This document shows positions 11,016 through 63,900 of a stretch of DNA of 64,000 nt, piece after piece. The DNA lies in IMG/VR virus record IMGVR_UViG_3300005098_000017, positions 62,001 to 126,000 of that record. One strand, written 5' to 3'. The stretch is from a virus. Below the pieces are notes generated by a model that was not told the origin of the DNA, ran no database searches, and was given only the letters and a program-made list of their open reading frames with translations. Position 1 is the first letter of the stretch. Each line of letters begins with the position of its first letter. Both the position numbers and the translations under genes were made by a program.

Positions 11016-13391
11016 TCAATCACACTTCCCACCATACCCACATTTTGGACATGGGTTATTACAATCAAATGCATATTCAACACCTCTGGTTATAATTTTA
11101 TAACCACACATGGGGCATACATTTATTATAGCATCATCTGGTACCTCACCATCCGGTAGAGCACCATTATACATATTTGATGCTTCTTGCACAGCCCTCT
11201 TGCGTTGCTCATATTCCTCCTCAGGCGTAATACCACGCAAGAAGTACTTTAGTGCTAATCCCCAGAATCCCACAGGAGATGCAATCTTGTGTCCTTTATA
11301 CCATGTCATACCATCAGCAGATTTTATGCTTGCAAACTCATTAATAATATGGTCAACAACACGGTGATATAACTCTTCATCTCCAAGGGCATAAATCTGC
11401 TTGAGGAATATCGATGTGATCACATCTAGAGCAATAATAAAATCCGAATGTGGTATATCCTTACTGCCCAAAAAGATTTCTAGTGGTTTACCCTCAACAC
11501 CCGCTACGATAAGATAATAGTTTCGGTCCCTATAAGGAAACTTATAAGCCTTCGCATCAAGTGTATCAGGCCTCTTCCAATCAGATAAAAAGAGGAACTT
11601 GCTCTTCTTCTTGCCACTTCTTATTACAGCCTGCCGGCTTCCTTCTCTGAACACAGTTATACCTTTTACCCCATTTTTCCAAGCATCAATAAAGAAGCGC
11701 GACAGATCATCCGTTGTCCATTGAGCTGGTATCGTATATGTATTGCTAATAGCATTATCGATATGTTTCTGTATCGCTGCATGGATGGCTAATTTATCAT
11801 AAGGATCAACATCATGTGCTGTAACCATGTATGGTGCATTTACATCATAACCATCGGTATTTTCTACCCATTCATATATAGGTTGCTTAAATTTCATCAT
11901 CTTATTGAAGCTCTCGCTCCACCGTTCGATCTCGAAATAAAAAATTGGCTCAAATGCTGCATTAACCCCTGTTAATAATGATATTGACCCCGTCGGCGGC
12001 ACAGTTAACAACGCAACATTCCTTATACCGTGTTCAGCTACCTGCATCATAAAGTCCTTATTAAAATGCTTTTTGATAAATAGCGCCTGCTCAACATAAT
12101 CCTCGTATGAACCATCCCTTTTAAATTGTTCAACAGCAGGCGCGGGGCCTAACTGCTGGGCGAGCTTAACAGATTCATCATATGCTATGTTACATATAAA
12201 TTCAGCTATGCGCTCGGCTTCCCTGACAGACTTAAGGGTACCATACTTAATGCGTTTAATAATAAAATAATCAGCCAGTCCCATAAACCCTATACCAACC
12301 CGCCTCTCAAACTGAGCCTGCTCCTTTACCTTATCTATAGGATAATATGCCCTGTCAATAATAGCATCACCTAATCTAACGGCAAATCGCACCGTTTGTT
12401 CTAACTTCTTCCAATCCATACGGCGAGTAGACAGATCCACATGAGCAACAAGATTGACGCTTAAGAGGTTACAAACGGAATAAGCCGGCAGCATCTGTTC
12501 CCCACACGGATTGCTTGTGGCAATCTTTGCATAACCTGATGAATTTGATGTGCGTTCGACATTGTCTATAAAAATAAGCCCCGGCTCCGCTGACTCCCAT
12601 GCGGTCCTTACAATCGTATCCCATAACTTCTTCGCCCTTATACTACGCTGGACCTTCACAACATCATTTTTGAATGATAGAGTGAAGTCATCATCAGAAA
12701 TCATAGCATCCATAAATTCATCAGTGACCTTAACAGATATGTTAGCATAGCGTACCTGAAGCCGGCTTAATATATACCTCACAAAATCGGCCTCCTCATC
12801 ATCAACATTCAGAAGAGTAAAATAACTCTCCATCGCATTGTTTAAATCACACTTCATTTTTACGAATCGCTCGATATCAGGATGTGTTATGTCAAGACTT
12901 ATCAACAGAGCTCCACGACGCCCGCTCTGACCAACCAACCCTGTAACAGCAGAATATAACTCAGCCCAGCTCCATGCACCCGTAGAAACCTTCGCAGATC
13001 CTGTGTGAACCTTTGCACCCTCAGGACGTAGCGTTGATATATCTATACCACATCCACCACCTGACTTATAAACGATTGCCAATTCCTTCGCCGTATCAAA
13101 AATGCCCTCCATGCTATCCTCTGGTGATGCTATGACATAACAGTTAAATGGCGTTATACGTTGTTCAACACTCCTTCCAGCCGCATACAAAACACGACCG
13201 CCAGGAACAAGCCGCCAGCTTAAATTACAATCATCATCAAAAAAGATGTTATCTGTCTCTATAGGATATGGTTTAAGGAAGTAATCATACACACGCTGAA
13301 AGATTGACTCAATCGGTTCATCAGGTTCTGCCTGATATTTTTTGGCTATCGTATCTCTTATGGTCTTATACTCATCAGATATTGGAATCAT
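11016..13391 (-). CDS. nrdJ: Class II (B12-dependent) ribonucleotide reductase
   Basis: 791 residues, single-chain ribonucleotide reductase. Active-site residues are visible: C84 (PFNCYVIAS), the catalytic N294-C296-E298 in TSNPCGEQMLP, C307 and the GGGCGIDISTLRPEGA loop. The C-terminal CPMCG...CPKCGYGGKCD is the cysteine tail expected of adenosylcobalamin-dependent enzymes. No NrdB or activase gene is seen in this window, consistent with class II. It provides deoxynucleotides without oxygen. ATG 13391 follows AAAGGAG and overlaps the upstream stop (ATGA). I see no intein here. Confidence 0.93.
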   Translation of the reverse strand: MIPISDEYKTIRDTIAKKYQAEPDEPIESIFQRVYDYFLKPYPIETDNIFFDDDCNLSWRLVPGGRVLYAAGRSVEQRITPFNCYVIASPEDSMEGIFDTAKELAIVYKSGGGCGIDISTLRPEGAKVHTGSAKVSTGAWSWAELYSAVTGLVGQSGRRGALLISLDITHPDIERFVKMKCDLNNAMESYFTLLNVDDEEADFVRYILSRLQVRYANISVKVTDEFMDAMISDDDFTLSFKNDVVKVQRSIRAKKLWDTIVRTAWESAEPGLIFIDNVERTSNSSGYAKIATSNPCGEQMLPAYSVCNLLSVNLVAHVDLSTRRMDWKKLEQTVRFAVRLGDAIIDRAYYPIDKVKEQAQFERRVGIGFMGLADYFIIKRIKYGTLKSVREAERIAEFICNIAYDESVKLAQQLGPAPAVEQFKRDGSYEDYVEQALFIKKHFNKDFMMQVAEHGIRNVALLTVPPTGSISLLTGVNAAFEPIFYFEIERWSESFNKMMKFKQPIYEWVENTDGYDVNAPYMVTAHDVDPYDKLAIHAAIQKHIDNAISNTYTIPAQWTTDDLSRFFIDAWKNGVKGITVFREGSRQAVIRSGKKKSKFLFLSDWKRPDTLDAKAYKFPYRDRNYYLIVAGVEGKPLEIFLGSKDIPHSDFIIALDVITSIFLKQIYALGDEELYHRVVDHIINEFASIKSADGMTWYKGHKIASPVGFWGLALKYFLRGITPEEEYEQRKRAVQEASNMYNGALPDGEVPDDAIINVCPMCGYKIITRGVEYAFDCNNPCPKCGYGGKCD

Positions 13392-23208: not shown

Positions 23209-23930
23209 CAACTCAGATAATAAAAAGTTTACGCTCCCAAGTTTTTATACCGCCGTCGTTGCAGGAAATGGAGCATATTGCTACACGTATGCGACATTTT
23301 ACACAGTTGAAGCAGGCACGTAGCGCGTTCCAGCGGGCGTGGAGTTTCGCACGCAAGACTGGTTTAGGAGCTGAGTATATTGCATCAGCGCGTCCATATA
23401 TTTTAGGTAAGTATTGGAAAGCTGTAACTGGAATATCAGGTGGTTATAAAGGTAAGGTATGGGCTGAAGAGGTTTTTAAAACGCTGAGTACGCACTATGC
23501 TAGGTTTACAAGGGCGCCGTTGACTACAACTGTGGGTGTGCGTCAGGGACTGCGTACACCATTACTTGTATCGGAGTCGATTTTAGGTAAGCGAGTTATA
23601 TCATTGAAATCTGTTGCTGGTGCTGCAGCGGCTTCCCGTGCTGCTGCACAGGCTGGTGCTACAGGTGCTGCGAAGGGAGTAACAAATAGGATAATGAGGA
23701 ATCGTTTATTGAAGCGTATTGCTCAGGGAACGTTTAAATTTGCACAGAGCAAAACGGGTGCTTTTACAGCTGCTGTGCTCGGCGGGCTTATAGCATTAAC
23801 AATTGCTGGTGCAAGTTATGTAAGAAGGAATCCATCAGAGGTTGCTTTGGCCCAGCTTAGGCAGCGTAGGGCCACACGTTATCCAAGGGCGCCTTCTGGT
23901 TTGGTCTTTGCACTACATGCAACAAGATAA
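23205..23930 (+). CDS. Basic protein 4 with C-terminal membrane segment (241 aa)
   Basis: 241 residues, ATGA overlap with the previous gene. Basic N-terminal two thirds; Ala-rich segment (SVAGAAAASRAAAQAGATGA), then a hydrophobic helix near 196-212 (AAVLGGLIALTIAGASYV) and a basic tail. The stop TAA is one base before the terminase ATG. Could be an internal virion protein delivered with the DNA. No family is recognised. Confidence 0.58.
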   Translation: MTTQIIKSLRSQVFIPPSLQEMEHIATRMRHFTQLKQARSAFQRAWSFARKTGLGAEYIASARPYILGKYWKAVTGISGGYKGKVWAEEVFKTLSTHYARFTRAPLTTTVGVRQGLRTPLLVSESILGKRVISLKSVAGAAAASRAAAQAGATGAAKGVTNRIMRNRLLKRIAQGTFKFAQSKTGAFTAAVLGGLIALTIAGASYVRRNPSEVALAQLRQRRATRYPRAPSGLVFALHATR

Positions 23931-23931
23931 T

Positions 23932-26388
23932 ATGGAAGGGAAAAGGTTATCATTAAAAGAGCTGAGTGCTGATGAACTTTTGCGCATACGCAAATCCGCT
24001 TCTTACTTTGTTGAATTATTCCTGCGTGATCCAACCGATCCGCGCCGGCCTCTAAAACTCTACGATTACCAGCGTGAGGTTTTGGATTATCCCGGTAAGA
24101 AGGTTGTTATAAGAGGCGGCCGTGGTGTCAGCAAAACAACAATGATGGCATGGAAGGCATTACACCGTGCCTTCACAATACCAAGGCATGTTATTATTTA
24201 TTTAGCACAATCGGAGACGATGCTGCTCAGATTTTTTACTGATTACCTTGACCGCTTCATTACAGATTCACCTCTAAGTAAATCGAAGGTTGCCTACCGC
24301 AAGCAGCCTCAGTATGAGATTGTATTGAGTAATGAGTCAAAAATTTTGGGGTTTGTTGGTAATTCTACGCAGACAATCAGAGGCCCGCGGGCTGGTACCA
24401 TTCTTATTGATGAATGTTTTCACGGTATGACGAAGGTCTTAACACAGCGCGGGCTTATTCCCATCAGTCGTGTTAGGGATGGTGATTATGTTCTTGATGC
24501 TGATAGCAAATGGGTGCGTGTTATCCGCGCTGCGATGACGGGTGTTAAAGAAATGTGGGTTATTGAGCTACCTATATCAGATGAAAAATTGGTTGTTACA
24601 CCTGATCACCCTGTTTTAACAAAGGATTCAGGGTTTCAGCCTCTTAATACGGTTGATGAGATACCGATTAGCTGTCGTTATTATGAGCCTTTTGAGTATC
24701 CTAAGGAAGCGGCGCTGGCGCTTATTTATGCACGATATATAAGCGAGCGTGAATCACTTGTATTTAATAATGAAGGTGTGCGGCTTATTATGTCTGGTTA
24801 TCCCAGATTCCGCACATTTTATGAGCGTTTCACGGCGGGCAGACATATTAATCCTGTGCTTATTGAGAAGGATTTTATAGACGGAAAAATTGATCAGCGT
24901 CTTTTTGTATATTATCTAGCTGCATTTGTTAATAGATTTCCTAAGATTGTCATCGATTATCTGACGGGGTTGGGTTATAAGGTTATAGCGGGTTCGCTGG
25001 CTAGTGATGATGTACCTAGATATGAAAAGGAGATAGGTTTTCCATTTTTTGAGTCAGGATGGTCAACGATTGTAAAATTAGCTGATAAGTTGAACCGTGA
25101 TCCTGTTGAGTTATATAAGGAGATGAATTGGTACAATACAGGCATATTTGTTCCTTATAAGAAGAAATCTACCATTAAGGCGGCGGCTTATAACCTTACT
25201 ACCGAATCGGGGACTTATTGTGTCTTTATTGGTGGATTCCGCATTCCTGTTCACAATTGTGATTATATACCTGAGCGTAAGTTTGTAGAGGTATTTGGTA
25301 CAACAATGTCAATGGAGGATGTTGTTATATGGTTATCATCCACACCCAGTCCTAAGAGAGGTTACTTTTGGCGTGCATGTAATGATGAACGCATGGGATT
25401 CAAGGAGTTTCATTTACCAAGTTGGTTGCATCCGACATGGACGTGGATGAAGGATGCTGAGAGATTGGGCATACCTATCGAAGAGACAACAGAGTATCAA
25501 ACTCGTGTTGAGTTTCCTAATCAAGCTGACTGGTTGCGTGAAATAGCCGCTGAGTTTGTTGATCTTGAGGAGAGCGCTATACCATCAAAATATATAGATG
25601 AAGCATTCCAGCATTATGACGGTGAGGTGAGCAGGAAGCGCGGCTTCCGCATCCTTGGTATCGATTGGAATGCGATGGCAGCAGGGGTTGTTATGGTGTT
25701 AGTAGAATACGATAATAAAAATAATGTATTTAGGGTTATCCATTCAGAAACGATTTCTAATGTTGAATATCATCACCAGAAGGCATTGCAACGTATTGTT
25801 GAGATGGTTAAACAATATCGCATTGATGCTATTGCAGCTGATTGGGGTTATGGAGAAAGTGATATACAGCAGCTCCAGCTTATTGGTAGAGCTAAAGGGA
25901 TTCGCGCGCTTACTGACATTATGGCCGTAAAGTTTAATGAGAAGATAAAAATACCGCTTTTCTCTGGTGGTTATGATGAATGTTATGCTAAGGAATACCT
26001 TATGCGGTTGGTCAGGAAGTTATTTGAGATGGGTGCTATCATGCTGCCTCCATCGGAGGATGAAAGGTTGCCTGAAAATTACGCTGATGCTACGAATATG
26101 TTGGGATACCAGTTGCGTAATTTGCGTGCTAAGGTAACAGGGACTGGTCACCTTACCTATGTTGTTGAACCAGACCATAAATTTGCTGCATTTTTAGCTG
26201 CTGTCTATGGGTTTTATAGAACATTCCAACCACGTATAGACCCGGTGCAGGGGCTTATTATTTATAATGATTTAGAACGGCAAGAACAGAAGTTGGATCA
26301 TGTTCCTAGTATAACATTACAGCCGAAGAAGACACAGCGGTTTGTCCATAGAGTTACAAATAGGTATAAGCCAATAAGAACTGTATGA
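23932..26388 (+). CDS. terL: Terminase large subunit with intein
   Basis: 818-residue precursor from ATG 23932, placed right after the preceding TAA (TAATATG); upstream in-frame starts overlap the previous gene and have no ribosome site. The ATPase half has YDYQREVL, Walker A GGRGVSKTT (62-70) and Walker B ending ILIDE. An intein (residues 162-442) interrupts the gene just after this Asp-Glu. The C-terminal nuclease half shows FRILGIDWNAMAAG, DAIAADWGYGESD and a DHKFAAFLAAVYGF segment, as in RNase H-like packaging nucleases. Mature protein about 537 residues, normal for TerL. It cuts and pumps DNA into the prohead. Confidence 0.93.
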   Translation: MEGKRLSLKELSADELLRIRKSASYFVELFLRDPTDPRRPLKLYDYQREVLDYPGKKVVIRGGRGVSKTTMMAWKALHRAFTIPRHVIIYLAQSETMLLRFFTDYLDRFITDSPLSKSKVAYRKQPQYEIVLSNESKILGFVGNSTQTIRGPRAGTILIDECFHGMTKVLTQRGLIPISRVRDGDYVLDADSKWVRVIRAAMTGVKEMWVIELPISDEKLVVTPDHPVLTKDSGFQPLNTVDEIPISCRYYEPFEYPKEAALALIYARYISERESLVFNNEGVRLIMSGYPRFRTFYERFTAGRHINPVLIEKDFIDGKIDQRLFVYYLAAFVNRFPKIVIDYLTGLGYKVIAGSLASDDVPRYEKEIGFPFFESGWSTIVKLADKLNRDPVELYKEMNWYNTGIFVPYKKKSTIKAAAYNLTTESGTYCVFIGGFRIPVHNCDYIPERKFVEVFGTTMSMEDVVIWLSSTPSPKRGYFWRACNDERMGFKEFHLPSWLHPTWTWMKDAERLGIPIEETTEYQTRVEFPNQADWLREIAAEFVDLEESAIPSKYIDEAFQHYDGEVSRKRGFRILGIDWNAMAAGVVMVLVEYDNKNNVFRVIHSETISNVEYHHQKALQRIVEMVKQYRIDAIAADWGYGESDIQQLQLIGRAKGIRALTDIMAVKFNEKIKIPLFSGGYDECYAKEYLMRLVRKLFEMGAIMLPPSEDERLPENYADATNMLGYQLRNLRAKVTGTGHLTYVVEPDHKFAAFLAAVYGFYRTFQPRIDPVQGLIIYNDLERQEQKLDHVPSITLQPKKTQRFVHRVTNRYKPIRTV
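24415..25257 (+). other. Intein in the terminase (281 aa)
   Basis: Starts at Cys1 (CFHGMTKVLTQRGLIPISRV; block A), with block B LVVTPDHPVLT (Thr-x-x-His). It ends CVFIGGFRIPVHN directly before Cys+1 of CDYIPERKF. All splicing residues (Cys1, TxxH, HN, Cys+1) are present. It is inserted in the Walker B strand after ILIDE. The central 130 residues (EAALALIYARYIS; LFVYYLAAFVNRF) have the spacing of a LAGLIDADG homing nuclease but lack its catalytic acids, so homing is probably lost. Confidence 0.88.
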
Positions 26389-36219: not shown

Positions 36220-36723
36220 GTGTATTGGGTAAAGCTATCAGGGCGCGCACCTGTAGCTACGATAACTTGTGGGCATCGTGTTGCACAGGTATCAGTCCGG
36301 TGCCCTATTTTTCCTCTTAAGGATTTTACGCCTCATTGTATAGCTCAGTTTCAAAGACATGTTGATGTATATATCATAGAGGAGAATTTTCCTATTGATG
36401 AGGACCGGAAGGTAGAAATTTTCTCTACGCTTATGGATGGTGATATTGATATCGAACCTTCTGAGGAGGAATTCGTTATGTGGTTAATCTCCAATGGGTT
36501 CCAGCCTAAGGGTACCTATCATAAGGTTGTAGTGAAGGAAACGGAGTCAGAAGAGGAAAATATTGTGTCTCCTGAAGTAAGTGAAGAGGATGGTAAGGTT
36601 GATGATGTTTCTGTACAGGAGTCTGATACAGTTAATGAGGTAACTAGTGATGAAAAACCTAAATCGGTAGGGAAGAAGAAAGGTGCGCGTCGAGGTAGAA
36701 CAAACAAGCGTAAACGTAAATGA
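36220..36723 (+). CDS. Hypothetical head-completion candidate (167 aa)
   Basis: 167 residues from GTG 36220, chosen because AGGAGG ends 6 bases upstream; a longer frame from 36181 would start inside the hairpin. A globular N-terminal part (VYWVKLSGRAPVATITCGHR), an acidic Ser/Glu/Val linker and a basic tail (KKKGARRGRTNKRKRK). The basic end may touch DNA. Position after the capsid suggests a head or connector protein. No family is recognised. Confidence 0.62.
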   Translation: MYWVKLSGRAPVATITCGHRVAQVSVRCPIFPLKDFTPHCIAQFQRHVDVYIIEENFPIDEDRKVEIFSTLMDGDIDIEPSEEEFVMWLISNGFQPKGTYHKVVVKETESEEENIVSPEVSEEDGKVDDVSVQESDTVNEVTSDEKPKSVGKKKGARRGRTNKRKRK

Positions 36724-37933
36724 TACGATTATAATTTCATGTGATCAGACACCTGATAGTAGTACTGTAGATGAAACGACCATCCGTCTTTATTATAAAG
36801 ATTATCCCCTGCCGCCTTCCTATGATTGCAGGGTCAATGGAAATAATATTGAGGTAATACCAGTTGAACCGTGGTTGGCTGGTTATACAATAATTTTAAC
36901 AGTAGTTGGTGAACAGTATGGTGTTAAATCTGTTGAAGGGGAGTCACTTGAGGAACCGGTTTATACATTTACAATAGCTGTATTACCTGCAGAGGAACCC
37001 GGCACGGCGCCTTCATATGAGCATGCATTAATTGTAACGGCGACAATACCAGAGGATTATTATACAAATTATACGGATAATCATATTAAATTTTTCTTCA
37101 ATGTTCCTATTGATCCGAGTATTGAGGATGCATATGAGGAACATGTTTTTATACATGTTAAGCCCGTAATAGTCCTGCCTCCTAATAGTCATCTGCCGGT
37201 GCCGCCTCAAGGCTATCTTGCGCCCGAGGCTTATTCTGTTGATGTTGATGGTACTACAATGACTGTAACAATAGGTGTGCCTATCTATAATGCAGAAATA
37301 AATGTCAAGATTGTTGATATCCATGCATTGAATATAAGTTATGTTCCTATATCAAGTTATGAAATAGTATTTACATATAGATATTCACCTCTTCTTTATA
37401 CACCTGATTATTTTGAGGTTGATCTACCAGATGATGTTATCTATCGGTACATTTTAAGGGCGGAGGCAATAGCTGACACACTTTATCCGGGTGTTCTTGA
37501 TTGGAATGACCCTGAGTGGTGTGTTGTTATGTTTGTTTATTATATGACGCAGCGGCTTATTTTAGAGCGTCTTTATGGCATATTAGCAATAATGGGTGGT
37601 TCATTTAGCAAGAGATTGGGCGATTTGCAGATATCGTATAACATTAGGCCTGATAATGATTTGAATAAGTTGCTAGGTCCTCTTTCTGCATTGGTGCGTA
37701 ATAGGTGTGCTAAGGTAGCTTTACATGGTGTCATACCGGGCCGTCTTGTCTATCCAATACCATATCACCGTCCTGATGTAGCATGGCGCCGCTTCCCTAT
37801 ATTAAAGGATTATTTTATTGAGGAGCCTACGGTATTTATGGGTGATCGGGCATGGGATTATGGTGTGTTTTTCAGGAAGCATATGGATCAATTGGAGACA
37901 GGTAGAGAGGTGCTTGGTGAAGAGAATGTATGA
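36683..37933 (+). CDS. Structural protein with N-terminal Ig-like domain (416 aa)
   Basis: 416 residues from GTG 36683, overlapping the previous gene by 41 bases; no better start exists in this frame before the conserved region. Residues about 15-95 and 105-220 look like bacterial Ig-like (SbsA/Big type) sandwiches (DQTPDSSTVDETTIRLYYKD). A different C-terminal region has VMFVYYMTQRLILERLYGIL. Likely a neck or connector component by position. Confidence 0.62.
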   Translation: MRVEVEQTSVNVNDTIIISCDQTPDSSTVDETTIRLYYKDYPLPPSYDCRVNGNNIEVIPVEPWLAGYTIILTVVGEQYGVKSVEGESLEEPVYTFTIAVLPAEEPGTAPSYEHALIVTATIPEDYYTNYTDNHIKFFFNVPIDPSIEDAYEEHVFIHVKPVIVLPPNSHLPVPPQGYLAPEAYSVDVDGTTMTVTIGVPIYNAEINVKIVDIHALNISYVPISSYEIVFTYRYSPLLYTPDYFEVDLPDDVIYRYILRAEAIADTLYPGVLDWNDPEWCVVMFVYYMTQRLILERLYGILAIMGGSFSKRLGDLQISYNIRPDNDLNKLLGPLSALVRNRCAKVALHGVIPGRLVYPIPYHRPDVAWRRFPILKDYFIEEPTVFMGDRAWDYGVFFRKHMDQLETGREVLGEENV

Positions 37934-39175: not shown

Positions 39176-42100
39176 ATGCCAAGGGATATAAGAGTAAGAT
39201 TCAGGCCTACGTTGGTTACCCCTCAGATAAGAGGGGGGTTTCCCACGCTGGGTGTTTTGATTATTGGTACGGCTACTGATGGCCCGACAAATGAGCCGGT
39301 TATTGTAAGGGGTCTTGAGGAAGCACAGGAGATTTTTGGCAACTTAGGTGAGGGGACTCTGCTGGAGGGTTATCATGAATTTATCACAGGTGCTTCACGT
39401 GGTGCAGACCTGCGTACTGTTGTGGGGCTTATGAGACTGGATTTCGGTGAGTATGCTAGTGTGGAGCTACCAGAGCCATCGACGGGTACAGGGCTAAGCG
39501 AGCCAATGGGTGCAACGGCGCTTACTATTAGAGCAAGATATAAAGGTGAAATATACAATATGTTTACCATATCATATAAGGCAGTAGCTGGCGGGTTTGC
39601 TGTATCTATAGTTGTGCCAGCTGAGAAAGATCCATCAGGAAAAAGCCAAGAATATGTGCTTCTTTGTGACCCATCAGGTAGTAATACAGAGCTTATAAAT
39701 AATCTTACGGAGCTGGCTAATGCTATTAATCATCATCCAGTGCTGGCACGTTGGTTGTATGCGGAGGTAAACCTTCTTGATAGTAGATATTCAACGTATA
39801 TATCCAATGGATTTTATTCGGGAGCTGGTGAGTCATTTAATGCGTGGGGTGTAGGATATAATGATACTGATAAGGTTATAGATTTTGTGAGCCGATTTAG
39901 TGGTTCGCCTAGTAGTGATGTTTTGGATTCAGGTGGTGACGATACATTAGGACAGTATCATCCTTATACGATATTTGGGACGACTCCTGTCAATGTTAGG
40001 GCCACATCACTTGACAACATACAAAATATAAGGAATTTTGGAAAACTGGCATTGTATGATGTGTCTGTAGATGCGAATACAAAGATTGCCAATTTAGGTG
40101 TCTATCCTCTTATACAGACCAAAGCCGGTGCAACAAAATTTTATCCCATAAGCGCATATAATGATTATGATGATGATGGTATGTATATTGATGTACCTAA
40201 TTATCTAAGGAATTGGGACACCCCCGCGACAGCTAAATATCTTATACCGGGTAGATTTCCTGTATCGGAGGCTGTCTTCTATATGGATGTGATTCTGAAC
40301 CCCAGCGGGGCTTCAGGGGATGTGAATTATGTCGAAACTAATATGTTCCTGCCTGTGGATGTTTATGGTGATGTATCACTAGCTAATCTTATTAATGCAT
40401 CAAGTGTTAGTGATACAAGACGGTTTAGTTATAAATGGATAATACAGACAGAAGCCGGGACGGTTTATGATAGTGGGGCATCTACTTATACAGGTTGGAT
40501 GTTGCCTCTTTTCCATTCTCCAATGTCATCTATCGGTGGATTAATATTATTCCATCAGAAAGATGGATCGCCGGTTGATGAGTTGGATACGATATTTGGT
40601 TCATGGAAATATCTCTATTTAGGTGTGCCTTCACAGGTAGGTGGATCAGCGCCTGATTGGTATTCTACGACACCGGATGCAGCTACATTAAAACTTATTG
40701 ATACAGGGGATAGTGAGAAGGTCCATATAGGTTTGGGTCCTGCATCAGCATTTTTCACGAAGACTGATGTAACGAGCCATTATGGTAATGAGACATCACC
40801 GGATGAGAATTATACTAATGCCATAAATACGGATGTAAAAGATTTTGATGGTTCATATTCAGGTAATGAGTTCAAGCTCTATTATTCAACGGATGGTTCA
40901 TCTTGGCATGAGATCCCTTTGTATTATGAATATGATGGCAAATATTGTTCTGGCCTTACATTAGAGTGGACATTTAATGGTCAAACAGATCTGGCCGCCT
41001 TAACTGATTTGAATACATTCAAGATCAAATTCTTTGATGGGATCACATGGTCCTCGGAGGATGATCCCGAGATCAAAGAAATCCAGTCGAAGTATCCATT
41101 CCTTGAGGTTGCGAAGGATACCAGCACTGGTGAATATTATCTCGTAATAGCTGCTGGAACAAGAATAAGACTAACGGGTTATACACCGAAGGTTATGTTG
41201 AAGTACCTGCCTTCGAGAGCGGCGCTTAATGACTGGTATGAGTATACTGTCTATCAGGATAGGATTGAGTTTGGTACACCTTATCCATACACAATTAAAT
41301 TCAAGGTTCATTATCTCAAGGAGTTTGTTGAGAATGTTGATTACATATATGATTCCGCACAAGGTACATTCCAGATGCTTGACTCTGAATTGATACCACC
41401 TGATAAGCTAACATTGCTGTATATGGATTATCAGTTTGAGCCTGAGTGGTTTGATACATCTCGTATCTATACATTATCAGGTGGTTCATCTGGGTTTGAG
41501 AGGGCGCGGCCTCTTGAATACTATGCAAAGTTCCGTACGGCTTTGCAAGCTATAAGCACAGATGATAGATTTGACATTATAGTGCCGAAGGGTGCTTATA
41601 TAGACACAGTTGATGAGGTATATGATGCATCTATATCTTCGACGACATATGTTAATGTAGGCTATGTGGATCTCTTTGATGAGTTTACGCAGAAACGTGC
41701 TGATGATGGCAACCCAACGATTGTTATCCTAGCAGCGGAACCTTATAAACCTGAGACAGCTATTGTAGGTTATACCCGTGAGGGTATAGCTAATTGGGTA
41801 ACAAGGATGACCGATACTACATCAATTGATCCCCGTTCGCCGGCGGGCTTAATTGCCTCTGTGACTGACAATCCAATGATGTGTGTTACTGTTGTACCGA
41901 TAGCACTTATAGCACCGGGCGGCGCTTATTACATATCGGATGGAGCTGCATTCCTTGCGGGTCTTGCTGCAAGATTCCATTATGTGCCCCGCACTGCAGC
42001 TAATGAGAGTCTTTACAACCTTGCACTTCCTAATGGTGTCAGACCTGCGTTTAGATTATCGGAGTCGCAGGTTGATGCATTGCTCAACATGCGTTACATA

Positions 42101-42460
42101 GTGTTCCACATGGGTCAGGATGGAGCGCCGCGGCTTATGAGAGATACAACACTTGCCCAGCCATTTAGTTCATTGAGTGCGCTAACCCACCTAGCTGTGT
42201 TGCTGCGTATTAAGCAGGGATTTATAAGAAGGCTGCGGCCTCATATCGGTAAGATCGTTAACGCTCAGACGAAGATGGAGGTTGATGCAGCTATAACATC
42301 CGAGTTGGCACTATGGCAGAAGAGTGGGATTATACAGCAGGCTATAGTTGATATTGATTGGGCAAGTCTTGAAGGTACATTGGGAGTATTACCAGTGCAT
42401 ATTACGATTGTGAGATCACCCATTCTGAAGGGTGTTGAAATAGATATTGTTGTGCGGTAA
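39176..42460 (+). CDS. Tail sheath protein
   Basis: 1094 residues, ATG 39176 after ATAGGAGTGGGG. The N-terminus (GVLIIGTATDGPTNEPVIVR) and the C-terminus (WLP-like SALTHLAVLLRIKQGFIRRL, then a final beta hairpin HITIVRSPILKGVEIDIVVR) match contractile sheath proteins, with a large surface insertion in the middle. Sheath subunits contract to drive the tube through the cell envelope. The gene defines the phage as myovirus-like. A terminator follows 26 bases after the stop. Confidence 0.85.
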   Translation: MPRDIRVRFRPTLVTPQIRGGFPTLGVLIIGTATDGPTNEPVIVRGLEEAQEIFGNLGEGTLLEGYHEFITGASRGADLRTVVGLMRLDFGEYASVELPEPSTGTGLSEPMGATALTIRARYKGEIYNMFTISYKAVAGGFAVSIVVPAEKDPSGKSQEYVLLCDPSGSNTELINNLTELANAINHHPVLARWLYAEVNLLDSRYSTYISNGFYSGAGESFNAWGVGYNDTDKVIDFVSRFSGSPSSDVLDSGGDDTLGQYHPYTIFGTTPVNVRATSLDNIQNIRNFGKLALYDVSVDANTKIANLGVYPLIQTKAGATKFYPISAYNDYDDDGMYIDVPNYLRNWDTPATAKYLIPGRFPVSEAVFYMDVILNPSGASGDVNYVETNMFLPVDVYGDVSLANLINASSVSDTRRFSYKWIIQTEAGTVYDSGASTYTGWMLPLFHSPMSSIGGLILFHQKDGSPVDELDTIFGSWKYLYLGVPSQVGGSAPDWYSTTPDAATLKLIDTGDSEKVHIGLGPASAFFTKTDVTSHYGNETSPDENYTNAINTDVKDFDGSYSGNEFKLYYSTDGSSWHEIPLYYEYDGKYCSGLTLEWTFNGQTDLAALTDLNTFKIKFFDGITWSSEDDPEIKEIQSKYPFLEVAKDTSTGEYYLVIAAGTRIRLTGYTPKVMLKYLPSRAALNDWYEYTVYQDRIEFGTPYPYTIKFKVHYLKEFVENVDYIYDSAQGTFQMLDSELIPPDKLTLLYMDYQFEPEWFDTSRIYTLSGGSSGFERARPLEYYAKFRTALQAISTDDRFDIIVPKGAYIDTVDEVYDASISSTTYVNVGYVDLFDEFTQKRADDGNPTIVILAAEPYKPETAIVGYTREGIANWVTRMTDTTSIDPRSPAGLIASVTDNPMMCVTVVPIALIAPGGAYYISDGAAFLAGLAARFHYVPRTAANESLYNLALPNGVRPAFRLSESQVDALLNMRYIVFHMGQDGAPRLMRDTTLAQPFSSLSALTHLAVLLRIKQGFIRRLRPHIGKIVNAQTKMEVDAAITSELALWQKSGIIQQAIVDIDWASLEGTLGVLPVHITIVRSPILKGVEIDIVVR

Positions 42461-42485
42461 GATTGGTGGAAGGAATATCAAGTAG

Positions 42486-42522
42486 AAGGCCCTCCGTATG
42501 AAGCGGGGGGCCTTTTTGTTTT
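42486..42522 (+). terminator. Rho-independent terminator after the sheath
   Basis: GC-rich stem AAGGCCCTCC / GGGGGGCCTT (42486-42495 and 42505-42514, one G-U, extended by a G-C) with a short loop, followed by TTTTTGTTTT. The clearest terminator in the window. It would reduce but probably not stop transcription into the tail tube genes. Confidence 0.88.
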
Positions 42523-42538
42523 GGTATGTTGTCTTGAG

Positions 42539-42772
42539 ATGAAAGATGTGAAGATATACATTGATGATGGTATTTTATATGTGGAATTTCATGAGTTCTA
42601 CGATCGGGCCGATATATTGATTTATGATGTGAAGGGCCGGCTTATTCATGAAGGGACTGCGGCCGGCTTAAGCGTCTATACATATGACATGTCTCGTTAT
42701 GCAAGTGGTCCTTACATTGTTGTTATTTTGGTTAGTGGTAGAAAATATAGTAAGGTAGTCACATTGCATTAG
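42539..42772 (+). CDS. Stand-alone T9SS-type C-terminal sorting domain
   Basis: 77 residues from ATG 42539; a TTG at 42521 in the same frame lies within the terminator tail and is rejected. The sequence ADILIYDVKGRLIHEG followed by YTYDMSRYASGPYIVVILVS and a closing KYSKVVTLH is the layout of type A T9SS sorting domains (strand, YDxxGR, loop, LASGxYIV, KxxKxxL). Normally this is the last domain of a large secreted protein; here it is nearly the entire protein. There is no signal peptide. It lies between the sheath terminator and the tube gene. Confidence 0.72.
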   Translation: MKDVKIYIDDGILYVEFHEFYDRADILIYDVKGRLIHEGTAAGLSVYTYDMSRYASGPYIVVILVSGRKYSKVVTLH

Positions 42773-42787
42773 TATTAGGAGGTTATT

Positions 42788-43645
42788 ATGGGACTGACAT
42801 TAAGTTCTAATAAATATGCTAAGACATTTAATTCCTTTTCAGGTGCTGATATATTCATAATCTTTGAAAATGCTACTGTTGGGACAATAACCCAGCTATC
42901 TTGGAATATAACGAGGGAGAAGGCCCCTCTTTATGTTCTTGGCCATGTTGATGCTGTGGGTACATCACGTGGTAAGAGAAGCATTGCTGGTTCACTTACA
43001 GGTCTAATCTTTGACCGTTGGACACTCTTTGATCTGGCATGGGGATCTGACATTACAGGTGAAGGTGGCCGTACCGGTGAGTATGCTGAGTATGCAAGGA
43101 AGACGGGTGATATCTTGGTGCCGGGTGATTTGATGTTTGTGGATTATGCTGATATATATGGCACTGATGTAGCACCGGGTACTAGAGCATGGCCTGTAGG
43201 TGGTGGCGGGTCTGCTGAGGAAGCATGGAAGAAGATGCTTGGTTGGGAGCCTAGTAGGGTTGTATATGCTGACCAAATGCTACCATGTGATGTAACGATT
43301 GTTGGTATTAATGAGGCAGGTAATTTTATGGTTTCGAGGATTTTTGGTATAGATTTGCTATCAACAGGTGCTGGTATATCAATTGATGATGTAACTATGG
43401 AGGAGCAGTATACATGGTTTGCTATGTCAATGCTACCATTTTTACCGAGGTATACAGGCGGTGAAGGTACTGGCTTAGAACTTTATAATCTCCTTAAGGA
43501 GTATTGGGGACTACCGGGTTCAGAGATGGCGTCGTTAAAGTCAGCTATGGAGACAATAGCTAGAGCAAGTCGTTCTGGTTTAGGTACTGGTAGCACTACT
43601 GGTGGAACAGGTACTGGAGGAACTGGTACTGGTGGAGGAGGTTGA
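42788..43645 (+). CDS. Tail tube-like protein 1 (285 aa)
   Basis: 285 residues, ATG 42788 with TTAGGAGG upstream. FNSFSGADIFIIFENATVG, NITREKAPLYVLGHVDA and SRGKRSIAGSLTGLIF are typical of phage tail tube-like proteins. The C-terminus is a Gly/Thr repeat tail (TGGTGTGGTGTGGGG). Position after the sheath agrees. The first of three adjacent related proteins. Confidence 0.75.
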   Translation: MGLTLSSNKYAKTFNSFSGADIFIIFENATVGTITQLSWNITREKAPLYVLGHVDAVGTSRGKRSIAGSLTGLIFDRWTLFDLAWGSDITGEGGRTGEYAEYARKTGDILVPGDLMFVDYADIYGTDVAPGTRAWPVGGGGSAEEAWKKMLGWEPSRVVYADQMLPCDVTIVGINEAGNFMVSRIFGIDLLSTGAGISIDDVTMEEQYTWFAMSMLPFLPRYTGGEGTGLELYNLLKEYWGLPGSEMASLKSAMETIARASRSGLGTGSTTGGTGTGGTGTGGGG

Positions 43646-44820
43646 TGAGATTAGAGGATGCTGAAAGCAAGCAGTATGTATTTAGTTTTAGTGGTGCTGA
43701 TTATATACCATTTGCTTTTGTGGGGGGGCGGCTTCGTGCGCTCCCCCTTGTTATGACGATAACGGCTTCTTTCGTTGCTGACCAAGCGCCGGCCTTAACC
43801 CTTGGTAGTAAGGTACCATTAACGATACGACCTGGTCATGTTACTGTCGCGGGCTCCATTATAGGAGCTGTCAGTGATGTACACCCTCTCTTTCCATTGA
43901 CATCATTGTTTGTTAGGGATGTGCGCTTCGGTACTGATGTTGCGCTAAGGACATATGAATTACCCCTTTTTGATATTATTATTGTTGGTATTAATGAGGT
44001 AGGTAGGACAACTGTTGCGAAGGTTTATGGTGCGCGTATTCAGCAGGGAGGATATACATATTCAATCCAGGATCTTTACACAGAGACAACATTTCAATAT
44101 AGGGCGTTGGATATGGATGAACCTCAGGTAGCACCTGTTATGGAAGGTGAGATGATGCATTATATCAATCCAGCCATATTTTTTGACCGGCTTAATAGGA
44201 TTCCTATCTTAGCGAAGAATAAAGCGGAGGTTGGTGCTGTATTGGGTGTTATATTATCATTGCGTGCGAAACTTATTGACATCTATGACAAGATTGCTAA
44301 TGCAAAGAGCATAGAAGAGCGTGAGCATTGGTTGCAGGAAGCTAAAAATGTGCAGGAAGAAATCCGCAGGTATGAGGATGCGCTTAATACGACATTGAGG
44401 TTATATTCGAGGACTGTTATATCAGGTAATCAATTTGCGGATGCTGTATTTGGGGATTTGGTTTGGCCGCGGGATTTGAAGTATGTTGAAGTGGAGAAAT
44501 CTTATGTATATCCGCAGCGTTATTATGCATCTGTTGGGGATACACAGAAGATTGGTACCTATCAGTGGCGTTCTGAACATGAGACTGATATGTGGAATAT
44601 ATATACCTATTTCCAACAGATTTATATAATGTTACGAGATTCGTATCGAAAAGGAGATGTACCTATGCATGATTTATATAGGAGGTGCTTAGATTTCCGT
44701 GCGAAGTTAATAAGTGCTATGTCAACCTTTAAGGAGGATAAATATTTACATCCATATTATGGTGAAGCTTTATTGAAGCGTTATGATGAGTTAATTAAGC
44801 AGATAAGAGAGAGACTATGA
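43642..44820 (+). CDS. Tail tube-like protein 2 with coiled coil (392 aa)
   Basis: 392 residues from ATG 43645 or the GATG just before, overlapping the previous gene. N-terminal 150 residues repeat the tube-like pattern (FSFSGADYIPFAFVGG; LTLGSKVPLTIRPGHVTVAG; IIIVGINEVGRTTVAK) seen in the preceding gene. A helical coiled-coil region (YDKIANAKSIEEREHWLQEA) and an aromatic C-terminal part follow. Likely a baseplate or tube-terminal protein built on a tube domain. Confidence 0.68.
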   Translation: MMRLEDAESKQYVFSFSGADYIPFAFVGGRLRALPLVMTITASFVADQAPALTLGSKVPLTIRPGHVTVAGSIIGAVSDVHPLFPLTSLFVRDVRFGTDVALRTYELPLFDIIIVGINEVGRTTVAKVYGARIQQGGYTYSIQDLYTETTFQYRALDMDEPQVAPVMEGEMMHYINPAIFFDRLNRIPILAKNKAEVGAVLGVILSLRAKLIDIYDKIANAKSIEEREHWLQEAKNVQEEIRRYEDALNTTLRLYSRTVISGNQFADAVFGDLVWPRDLKYVEVEKSYVYPQRYYASVGDTQKIGTYQWRSEHETDMWNIYTYFQQIYIMLRDSYRKGDVPMHDLYRRCLDFRAKLISAMSTFKEDKYLHPYYGEALLKRYDELIKQIRERL

Positions 44821-46823
44821 TAGTCCGCCGTTTTGTAAACACTAACATATATAAGAATCTACAGGAGAAGCAGGGCATAACAGACAATGATGGTACTGTT
44901 TCCTATAAGCCGGCTGAGGAAACGACTTTTGATATACCTTATTTAGAGGATTTTTATACCCCTGCGCTTATTACGCTTTACTTTGATGGCATAAGGATAG
45001 CTGAGGCTGTTTTTGTGGAATATGTTTATAATGATCAGAAGATACCTGTTTATGGTTATGGGGATCGTTATGTTCGTGCATTTGAGGAGGGGCATCATTT
45101 AATAAGCGGGCGCATGGGGTTTTTATTTAAGGAGACGGCTTATTTATCGAGTGTTATTGATTTGGTATCAGGAAGCCGGCTTATTACCACACCCGGAGGT
45201 GAAAGTGCTGTATATGCATTGCTGCAGAGAGTACTGAGCGATCCTGAGGTTAATGAAAAAGTTGAATATATGAGGCAGATTTTGACATCGGTATTTGGGT
45301 TGGAGCCCTTCAAGGTTGGGCAGCTTAATGCTAATCAGATGATTAATTTATTAAAGATTTATAAGTCTGTTATTTATATGACTGTGAATCCCCGCTATGG
45401 CGCCACAGGTCCTTTGGTGACAGAGGCAATGAACAGTAGCGAAGCGCTTAGTTCTCCCTCATCGCCACTGGTATGGAAGATCGGCTCGCCTCATGTTATA
45501 TCGGCAATGTTAGATATGGAGGATGTCTTTGGTGAGGTGGCTATTGAAGGATTGTGGGAATCAGTGGAAGATGCATTATGGAGTAAGGAGGTGCCGGGCT
45601 TAGACATTGCACCCATCGTAGAGCATGATTTAGGTTATACAGGTTATGGGTATGTAATATCTGACAAAACATTTGATGTTTTTATAAGGTATGGTGCTGA
45701 TGGATCAAGCATTACAGACCATACAGTTGAGGTTATCAATGATGTCCATCTTGTATCAAGTGGCAAGAGCATCAATGTTGGCTCGCCTGATCTTGTTGTT
45801 GAGGTTTTGGAGTTCATAGCGCGCACTAACAATCGGCGGCTTAATATCTACCAGCATAAACAGGTATCGGAGACGGATGAGCTTATTCCACCGCAAATGG
45901 ATAGTGGTATGAGCGAGGGGAAGAAGTATTTTAGTTATAAGAAAGAAGAAATGGAGAATGCGAGGGTCGGGGATCAGGAAAAGGAGAAATATAGAAAGCT
46001 TTCAGAAGAGGAATTGAAAGAAATGCGGGCTACCTTGTGCGGTCGTTGTATTGATGAAAGATGTAGTATCAAGGTGGGTAGTTTTGGGTTTAACACGTTG
46101 AAAGATAGCTTGTTTGAACATACAGGTATAACATTAGATATTAGCTATCGAGGTGAGACTCATTTTGGTCCTTTGGTCATATATGAAAAACCGACATTTA
46201 CTTTGAGTGTGGAGAAGACAGTTGATAATTTGTTGGCTAATATTGCAAAATTATCGCAGGCTGCTACAAGGGGATCATTGGGTGGATTTGTAGTAGAGAA
46301 AGGTTTGTTGGAAGTTGTGTGGGGGCAGCATCCTAAACTTGAGCAGCAGGGCCCTCATAAAGTAAGGACAGTTGGTTGTCCTTTTGCGTTTGCGGAGGCG
46401 GTTGTAGAAAATTTGAAGCCATCATTTTGTTTACGCTACTTGAATGCTCTTTTAAGGTATAGTGCCCCACCGAGTGCTATTATTGATGATTTGCGTGCTA
46501 TTTTAGATTATGTTACTTCGCATTCAGGTATCGCAAGTTTGAAGTTTCCTATAGCTATTGCTATGGCTGGTCATGGTGATGAGTTTAATAAAAACATTTC
46601 GCAATATATGAAAGGGGTTCATGTGCCACAATTTGATGTATATGATGGATTAAAGATAAGTGTAAAAAAAGCACTACTACAAATAAATGAAGGGGAAAAT
46701 ACTCCTTATAAATTGGCTGTTTTGCCGTTGTACATAATTATGATTGATTTAGCTGACCGTGAATCGGTATTGAATTTTAAAAATAAGCTTGACACATGGA
46801 CATTCCATCATTATTATTACTGA
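44817..46823 (+). CDS. Tail/baseplate protein with tube-like domain (668 aa)
   Basis: 668 residues, ATGA overlap with the previous gene. The N-terminal 110 residues again show the tube-like layout (ALITLYFDGIRIAEAVFVEY; VYGYGDRYVRAFEEGHHLIS; GRMGFLF). A CGRCIDERC motif lies near residue 407. The rest is mixed helix/strand without a known family. Probably a tail-end or baseplate protein derived from a tube duplication. Confidence 0.62.
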   Translation: MIVRRFVNTNIYKNLQEKQGITDNDGTVSYKPAEETTFDIPYLEDFYTPALITLYFDGIRIAEAVFVEYVYNDQKIPVYGYGDRYVRAFEEGHHLISGRMGFLFKETAYLSSVIDLVSGSRLITTPGGESAVYALLQRVLSDPEVNEKVEYMRQILTSVFGLEPFKVGQLNANQMINLLKIYKSVIYMTVNPRYGATGPLVTEAMNSSEALSSPSSPLVWKIGSPHVISAMLDMEDVFGEVAIEGLWESVEDALWSKEVPGLDIAPIVEHDLGYTGYGYVISDKTFDVFIRYGADGSSITDHTVEVINDVHLVSSGKSINVGSPDLVVEVLEFIARTNNRRLNIYQHKQVSETDELIPPQMDSGMSEGKKYFSYKKEEMENARVGDQEKEKYRKLSEEELKEMRATLCGRCIDERCSIKVGSFGFNTLKDSLFEHTGITLDISYRGETHFGPLVIYEKPTFTLSVEKTVDNLLANIAKLSQAATRGSLGGFVVEKGLLEVVWGQHPKLEQQGPHKVRTVGCPFAFAEAVVENLKPSFCLRYLNALLRYSAPPSAIIDDLRAILDYVTSHSGIASLKFPIAIAMAGHGDEFNKNISQYMKGVHVPQFDVYDGLKISVKKALLQINEGENTPYKLAVLPLYIIMIDLADRESVLNFKNKLDTWTFHHYYY

Positions 46824-60939: not shown

Positions 60940-63900
60940 TTACAGGACAGCTATTATAGGTACTGTTCCTGTGATTGTTACAGATTTTAGAGTTGTTGAG
61001 AATTTTTCCTACCAGCAGATACAGACGCTACGTATGGATAATAATGTTATTTACCAGATACCCGGAAGGAATTTGTATGTTATTATTGGATTAGAATTTC
61101 CTGATGGTTATTCCATTAATACAGGACTGCGTGAGCTCCATGCCATGATGTTTCTTGCTTCCATTGTACCTATTTATAGTCCGTGGCTTAATGACATGGT
61201 TATTGCATCGTTTGATCAATATAGAGGGCTTGCTGAATTAATGGGTGTTAATACAGATGTAAACATTTATGCATTGCGTCGTTTAACGATGAGATCTGTT
61301 GAGTCGCCTTATGCTATTGGTGTTGAGATGGAGATTGCTCCCATGGATTTAGATGCGGCGCGGCTTAAACCCCAATTCCTTGTGGATGAAGAGGCAGCGC
61401 GGGCTAAATCTGAATTTATAGCGAGGTTGTTTGAGTTATATGAAACGATGAAGAGAAGTGAGGACCCGCTGGCTTATTTGGATGGCTTTACATCTATCTA
61501 CAATGATTACAAGAGGGCTGTTGCTAATAAGGTTGTCGACTTCCTATGGCAGTCAGAATTATTTAAAAGGTGGATAAGCATAATATATCCTGAGGGTGAT
61601 AAGTCACTTTTACCAGTTCAAGGGGTGCGGCTTAAACGGCAGCTTGGTATATGGAGACAAACGCCATTTGCTAATATTGTTATTCATTATCTTCATATGG
61701 CTGATGATATCGTATCGTTGCGAGATGAAATCCATAAGTATGTTTCAGATGTGGCTAGTAGTACAGCGAAAATGATCCGTGATTATGTAGCTGATTACGA
61801 ACAAATTCAGCAGGTTGGCGCGCCTCGACGATTTTTTCAAGTATTACAGACATTATATAATAGCATTAAAGGTGGCATACGCACCCGTGTTGATAGTTCA
61901 TTAATGGGTACTATAGCATTTGGCAATCAGATAAGAGAGATGTTACTTGAGGTTGCATTACGTATGGATAATGGGCAGAGAGGTAAGTTTACTAACTATG
62001 TGCAAAGGATTCTATCTCTGACGGCGGGGCCTAATCTAGTAGTCCCTGAGATGATGATGGAAGGTGAATCAGCTATTGTTACAATGTCTGATTTTCTTAC
62101 TAGATTTTTTGCGGAATTAGGTAAGAAGTTGGATACGGATTCATACAAAATTTTTGTTGATTTATTTGCTGATGTTATGTCTGAACGTATTGCGTATTGG
62201 GAGTTGTTTTCAAAGGTGATGAAATATGAGACATTTGATTTTGGTAAGTATCGTGCTACTCCAACCAGATGGGAATACACTGTGACTAATAAATTTGTAC
62301 CTCTGAGGATTGGTGATGCAGTAGCTCCCTTGTTGCAACATCTTGGTACTGACAGTCCTATATTTAGGGTGCAGTATGCATGTGGTGATGGTCTGGCCAT
62401 AAGGCAGCTAAAACAGTTAAGAGATGATGTTGATAAGGCTGTGCAACAGATAAATGAAATAGGGTCATATTTCCCTTGGATTACGAGATATATAGAGCCT
62501 ATAATATTATCCTCAACGGACGGCTTAATTGAATTTCTGGGCATGCAGCATGCGGTTTTAGATTCAGTAAGTATTAATCCGATGGAAGAAGCCGCGATGG
62601 TTGCTGAGGCTACATGTACATTTGTTGCCTCTGATATAACGATTTTTGATTACGAGCAGTTTGAGTTTGCCGATACTGTTGGTGCCAATAATTTATCATG
62701 TCTATTATTATTCTATGCATTGCGTAAATGGTACCAGGAAATTTTTGGCAAAGACCTTCCTCCGAGTGGTACTGTTGCAGAGACGGTGCAGCCATTAAAG
62801 GAAGGTGAAGATATTTCGAAGCTAAGGATTCCGTTTAAATTGTTTGATGTTATGGATTCACAGAATGTAACGAAGCGTGCATTTCAGTATGCGATGACAT
62901 TATCCAAAGCTGAGAATCAGAATTATTATAACTTCACTATCTATAATTCAGATAAAAAGGCTGTATATGCATTAAATGAGGGTGTGGTTACTAACGTAAC
63001 TAATAATCTGGTTGATGGTTATATAGTTCGTGTGAAAAACGGTGATTTTGTAACGGAGTATAGGAATCTGGGGAAATTGGCAGAGGATATTAAGCCGGGC
63101 GAAAAGGTGTTGGGTGGACAATATTTAGGGGAGGCGCGCTTCTTTGCTAGTGGAACATATCCAACCGAAGTACAGGAAAAAGAAGTTAAAATGCTACCTA
63201 ACCTATTAGGATTAGGGGTGCCTGAGGTTGTTCAAGAATACAAGAAGAAAGTAAAAACATCTGGTCCTGCGCCTTATGGGGTGTTTATATTATTTATGTA
63301 TAAAAATATTCCATTGGACCTAGAAATTTATAAAGGTAAGGAGGTTTTTGAAAAAGCAGCTAATATATCTGCGCCCACAGATATATATGCATATTTTTGG
63401 ACCCATACTAAGGATGATAAAATAACATGGGCTGGGCATACCTATGATGTGAAAAATAATCCTTATGTCCAAGGATATGTAAATAGTGTCTTAGGTGGGA
63501 TACCTATTTTAGAATCAATTTCGAATCGTGTTTTTGATGAGAAGACATTTTTTGATGTCCTTATTCGATTACTGATGGAGAAATGTATGACATGTGTATC
63601 GTCATTTGATATTGCTGGCTTGGAGCAGAAACTTGCAAATGAATTGGGTATGGAGCCGGCTTCTGCAACTGATAAAGCTGTTCCAACACAGGAGGAATAT
63701 GTGCCCGTTCTTGGCCGTCCATACTTTACCCACCCATCATTGGAAGAGATGAAACTACCAGAGCCACAATTACCTCCTAAGGTAACTCCGGCACCAGAGG
63801 AAGGAAAAATGGAAGTACCTGAGGAGAAAGTAGAGAAACCGCAGCTTTCTGCACCAAAAGAATTACCTGAGGAGGCCCCGCCAGTAGAGGTGCCGCCTAG

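Follow-up and report, generated by a model that had tools for sequence, protein, structure and literature searches.

A gene of 77 codons, whose product is a single free-standing Ig-fold domain of the DUF3244 and type IX secretion system (T9SS) type A C-terminal sorting domain (CTD) group, lies in the tail operon of a 0305phi8-36-like myovirus. It is a real gene under purifying selection, and its product is neither a T9SS substrate nor easily a decoy for the secretion machinery. The window analysed was the 64,000-nucleotide stretch at positions 62,001 to 126,000 of the IMG/VR record IMGVR_UViG_3300005098_000017, and all coordinates refer to it unless stated otherwise.

The 77-codon gene and its conservation

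The open reading frame occupies 42539..42772 on the + strand, from an ATG at 42539 to a TAG stop at 42772, as given by the initial annotation; a TTG at 42521 and a GTG at 42548 are alternative starts. Two more viral contigs from different metagenomes encode the protein with 100% and 90% identity, giving three contigs in all with an intact gene. Between the gene in the window and the 90% copy, 15 of the 20 nucleotide differences were at codon position 3, and dN was 0.048 and dS 0.283 (dN/dS about 0.17), the pattern of a gene under purifying selection. As this ratio exceeds those of the sheath and tube genes (0.03–0.13), selection on the 77-aa protein is looser than on these neighbours, and the protein does not belong to the core parts. 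A recent passenger with no selected function, namely a piece of a host gene brought in by recombination, would fit the restriction of the gene to its own lineage and its lack of a Shine-Dalgarno sequence, but it is largely refuted by the substitution pattern: purifying selection has kept the frame open while the DNA diverged by about 10%, and the gene is intact in all three contigs. We therefore consider a passenger improbable.

A search of viral contigs for further free-standing relatives returned only the same two contigs. In tblastn with the whole protein, no relative was found among phage records, and the only plasmid matches were a Chryseobacterium T9SS protein of weak similarity (E 1) and stretches of Rhizobium that carry no annotation. 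The remainder of the 147-kb record contained no second DUF3244 domain and no PF18962 match.

Position between the sheath and tube genes

The gene lies within the virion structural operon, in agreement with its description as part of a tail operon. Upstream, a tail sheath protein of 1094 aa is encoded at 39176..42460 (+) and is followed by an intrinsic terminator hairpin (42484..42516, +) and by the stretch TTTTGGTATGTTGTCTTGAG (42519..42538, +), which extends to the ATG and is identical in locus L003. Downstream are the tail tube gene (42788..43645, +) with its own Shine-Dalgarno sequence, AGGAGGT, and genes for a second tube-like protein (43642..44820, +) and a third one of weak similarity (44817..46823, +). 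The tube-like proteins have relatives in Moorella phage MTATph1, Bacillus phage KLEB27-3, and Acinetobacter phage ME3, all of the 0305phi8-36 group, and the phage is a 0305phi8-36-like myovirus. The sheath is unusually long, also in the sister phage L021 (1221 aa), and sheath profiles recognise only its ends. A further virion-region protein (36683–37933) carries an N-terminal Big_5 Ig-like domain (PF13205, 23.8 versus 23.6 bits), and the annotated Ig-like structural protein of KLEB27-3, gp021, is likewise located in a tail region.

For comparison, 80 viral loci were collected on the basis of a related tube gene, two of which are copies of the phage's own lineage. In the 78 others, and in MTATph1, KLEB27-3, and ME3, no comparable gene was present at the sheath-tube junction. 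The closest relative, L021, whose tube is 52% identical, has the order sheath, terminator, Shine-Dalgarno, tube; among the relatives, terminator-like hairpins are common at the junction, many of the group having one, and the stem is kept in L003 despite changes in sequence and length. No terminator was found between the 77-aa gene and the tube gene. As the relatives have the junction terminator and no such gene, the 77-aa gene has been inserted after the pre-existing terminator and immediately before the tube gene.

Fusion of the reading frame to the tube was rejected, as two in-frame stops separate them. Ig-like domains of phages are often optional extensions made by stop-codon read-through or frameshifting, and in the window the 77-aa frame is that of the sheath, with the 26 codons past the sheath stop open, as expected of an optional C-terminal sheath extension. 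However, the spacer is 85 nt in L003 against 78 nt in the window, which changes the frame, and it consists of the terminator hairpin, which shows no coding conservation in its sequence. A conserved read-through or frameshift fusion to the sheath was thus rejected, and we regard a sheath extension of any kind as very improbable.

Several observations were made elsewhere in the phage genome. The terminase large subunit frame (23842–26388, 848 aa) probably contains an intein, judging from Vint and Hint_2 matches at residues about 192–269, both below the Pfam cut-offs. An adenosylcobalamin-dependent (class II) ribonucleotide reductase (TIGR02504, above cut-off) is encoded at 11016–13391 on the − strand, and a 634-aa protein encoded at 6300–8204 matches two glycosyltransferase types, Glyco_transf_4/Glycos_transf_1 and family 2. 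Outside the window (L011:18512–19756, equal to 58512–59756 of contig G000), the phage also has a complete gene for a TnpB-family RNA-guided endonuclease (NF040570, 302.7 bits).

Expression signals

None of the possible starts of the 77-aa gene is preceded by a Shine-Dalgarno sequence, whereas core Shine-Dalgarno motifs precede 18 of 50 phage genes and 3.2% of other ATGs. The 20 nt upstream of the ATG at 42539 are identical in L003. Between the terminator and the ATG, as also after the terminator in L021, there is a TTTGGTAT element, which is possibly a −10 region, and the transcript might then be leaderless; as a search for a genome-wide late-promoter motif found none matching the stretch before the ATG, this idea stays a guess. 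From its position directly upstream of the tube gene, the 77-aa gene is probably on the same late transcript as that gene.

Sequence family and predicted fold

The 77-aa protein matched PF11589 (DUF3244) at 31.3 bits, above the curated gathering cut-off of 25, and both copies in the related contigs also exceeded this cut-off. The T9SS models matched the same residues at scores below their cut-offs (PF18962, 23.9 bits versus 27; TIGR04183, 18.5 bits versus 23). A custom HMM was made with 22 CTDs of cellular origin, of which a Candidatus Fermentibacteria MAG supplied 20 and a related genome of the same phylum and Chryseobacterium one each. With this HMM the protein scored 26.0 bits, against at most 11.0 for 5,000 shuffles, and the match was carried by the IYDVKGRLI and DMSRYASGPYIV segments. 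A mixed alignment of CTDs proved too divergent to yield search patterns. Chance resemblance to CTDs was ruled out by the shuffles together with the predicted fold. The initial annotation had called the product a T9SS sorting domain; the resemblance is above chance and extends to the fold, while membership by the curated T9SS profiles does not hold, and DUF3244 is the better family match. Known DUF3244 proteins are encoded by Bacteroidota and exported, which is not a condition of the Pfam model. The protein studied here is encoded by a tailed phage and has no N-terminal hydrophobic signal sequence at any start; it belongs to the DUF3244 domain family and not to the bacterial secreted proteins that carry the domain.

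The fold was modelled with AlphaFold2, run without any alignment, which gave a confident seven-stranded sandwich (mean pLDDT 91.4). The best matches of the model in PDB by Foldseek were three DUF3244 proteins and T9SS CTDs from translocon complexes (8gl6, 8glk, and 8gl8, with CTDs inside SprA-PorV); PorZ was also among the solved structures matched. In VIA-align, the DUF3244 protein 3sd2 aligned with Z 13.1, rmsd 1.5 over 77 residues, TM 0.89, and 26% identity, and the DUF3244 entries 4g5a and 3d33 with Z 11.2. The T9SS CTDs followed (RemA, Z 10.7; NucA, 10.1; RemZ, 10.0; mirolase, 9.9; RgpB, 9.9), set against a background in which a de novo designed Ig-like protein reached Z 10.5 and many unrelated Ig/FN3 domains, many of them from GH2 enzymes, reached 8.7–9.8. 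The CTD matches, at Z about 10, are thus only slightly above the general level of the fold, and the DUF3244 matches (11–13) are clearer. The best matches in a viral structure library were portions of longer proteins, several of them annotated as secretion-system C-terminal sorting domains. By its model, the protein has the fold of the DUF3244/CTD group over its 77 residues, with DUF3244 closest, and not a phage tail-specific fold.

Secretion features

By inspection, no start codon of the 77-aa gene yields a signal peptide, and a lipoprotein or other signal peptide from an upstream start is impossible in the window. The CTD-like domain is the entire open reading frame, which leaves no cargo part; the description of the product as lacking both cargo and signal peptide was thus correct. 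The motifs IYDxxGR and DxSxxxxGxY are shared with T9SS type A CTDs. The PNP motif at the start of the domain, present in nearly all fetched Fermentibacteria CTDs, is absent from the 77-aa protein. In type A CTDs, conserved motifs specify the fold, recognition is by fold more than by sequence, and PorV is contacted by a nearly invariant lysine near the C-terminal end (PMC10994853). The candidate counterpart, K72, is kept in both versions of the 77-aa protein and aligns with a lysine of the Chryseobacterium CTD in a last strand of uncertain alignment, in which the fetched Fermentibacteria CTDs have no clear match.

These features bear on the proposal that the domain jams host secretion as a decoy or, more broadly, that it binds to PorV/SprA, whether in the host, in cells nearby once lysis has occurred, or upon delivery with the tail, and so blocks or borrows secretion. 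The model has the same fold as the CTDs in the SprA-PorV translocon, the mode of recognition and the kept K72 are compatible with binding, and other phages encode T9SS cargo proteins (PMC7468147). However, every known T9SS substrate depends on a Sec signal peptide for entry into the periplasm, in addition to its C-terminal CTD (PMC12618676), and a decoy without such a peptide cannot get there by itself. The sub-threshold T9SS profiles, the missing PNP motif, and the abundance of Shine-Dalgarno sequences in the phage, unlike in Bacteroidetes mRNAs (PMC6847099), also count against it. Without signal peptide, cargo, or PNP motif, the 77-aa protein does not qualify as a T9SS substrate and would hardly work as a decoy; jamming or hijacking of secretion is not supported, and we judge it improbable. 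The variant in which the phage displays or delivers the bare CTD as a weapon or adhesin that docks into the PorV/SprA translocon, in the host or in cells that meet virions, and either uses the secretion machinery as its receptor or blocks it, would be a slightly longer shot still.

Host of the phage

The domain had also been taken as a strong clue to the host phylum, a claim that is only weakly supported: Shine-Dalgarno use in the phage is far above background, and CTDs are abundant outside Bacteroidota as well. Because Bacteroidetes mRNAs lack Shine-Dalgarno sequences (PMC6847099), the strong use of these sequences in the phage argues against a Bacteroidia host. Other CTD-bearing groups are possible hosts. 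In the non-Bacteroidota Candidatus Fermentibacteria MAG there are 69 CTD matches, alongside a distant tube relative at about 30% identity, which together are not evidence enough for a host assignment. The nearest named phages of the lineage infect Moorella, Bacillus, and Acinetobacter. Tail tube relatives in genomes are only about 30–43% identical and are scattered over Acholeplasmataceae, Gammaproteobacteria, Fermentibacteria, Firmicutes, Acidobacteria, and Kiritimatiellae. No tRNA was found as a host clue in the scanned stretches, which covered nearly all of the 147-kb record.

Proposed role of the 77-aa protein

The position of the gene and the lack of an export signal best support an accessory role in the virion or tail. 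A single DUF3244/T9SS type A CTD-fold Ig-like domain would have been captured from a cellular source by one 0305phi8-36-like lineage, its gene coming to lie after the pre-existing sheath terminator and before the tube gene's ribosome-binding site. Its product would be made late as an independent protein, would stay in the cytoplasm during assembly for want of a signal peptide, and would most likely serve the tail or virion as a small accessory or decoration protein, binding another protein or a surface like other phage Ig-like domains. We hold this reading with middling confidence, and late co-expression with the tube, virion association, and the cellular donor are what we infer. An Ig-like fold taken from the host had been among the options offered at the outset and is supported, as is a free-standing T9SS-CTD-like Ig domain. 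Against the accessory reading stand the unfused state of the 77-aa protein, since phage Ig-like domains mostly occur as fusions to structural proteins, its looser selection relative to sheath and tubes, and its missing Shine-Dalgarno sequence.

The main rival is a cytoplasmic Ig-like adaptor outside the virion, such as an assembly chaperone for tube or sheath or a binder in host takeover or anti-defence. The small single-domain product, the missing signal peptide, and the accessory, lineage-specific character of a gene more variable than its structural neighbours would all suit such an adaptor. It is nevertheless a doubtful alternative, to which we give perhaps one chance in four, as the gene sits in the tail operon, no defence-linked gene neighbours it, and no known family has such a role.

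Comparison with known systems

Phage T9SS sorting domains were known before as tags on larger proteins, and DUF3244 was known from Bacteroides. As far as the searches go, a bare, signal-less DUF3244/CTD domain under selection in a myovirus tail operon appears to be new. Such an export-incompetent version suggests that the CTD fold can be a generic binding module outside secretion, and the 77-aa protein is a direct test object for binding to the translocon, the tail, or other partners. It also cautions that a CTD-like match alone proves neither secretion nor a Bacteroidota host.

The best match in both sequence family and structure is with the DUF3244 proteins of Bacteroidota (BT_3571, 3sd2; BT_1867, 4g5a; BVU_0276, 3d33), which are likewise short and essentially of one domain. 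The known members are bacterial (Bacteroides), whereas the 77-aa protein is phage-encoded, and as the matched residues of 3sd2 begin at 41, DUF3244 proteins have an additional N-terminal portion not present in the phage protein. With T9SS type A CTDs (TIGR04183/PF18962; RemA, NucA, RgpB, mirolase) it shares the seven-stranded Ig-like sandwich and both motifs, with K72 as a candidate for the lysine near the C terminus, but it differs in having no cargo, signal peptide, or PNP motif and in scoring below the curated cut-offs. T9SS sorting domains in phage genomes are found in the cargo proteins of Cryophage (PMC7468147) and of crAss-like BACON phages (PMC6949934) and in BFVD entries such as A0A6J5L910; in those cases a larger protein (enzyme, PA14, or BACON) carries the domain as its C-terminal tag, whereas here the domain is the whole protein and is encoded in a tail operon. 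Ig-like domains encoded among virion genes are a known theme, as in T4 Hoc (PMC10385173) and T5 pb10 (PMC5292684), which consist of several domains or are joined to a part that binds capsid or tail, whereas the 77-aa protein is a single unfused domain and a putative virion component.
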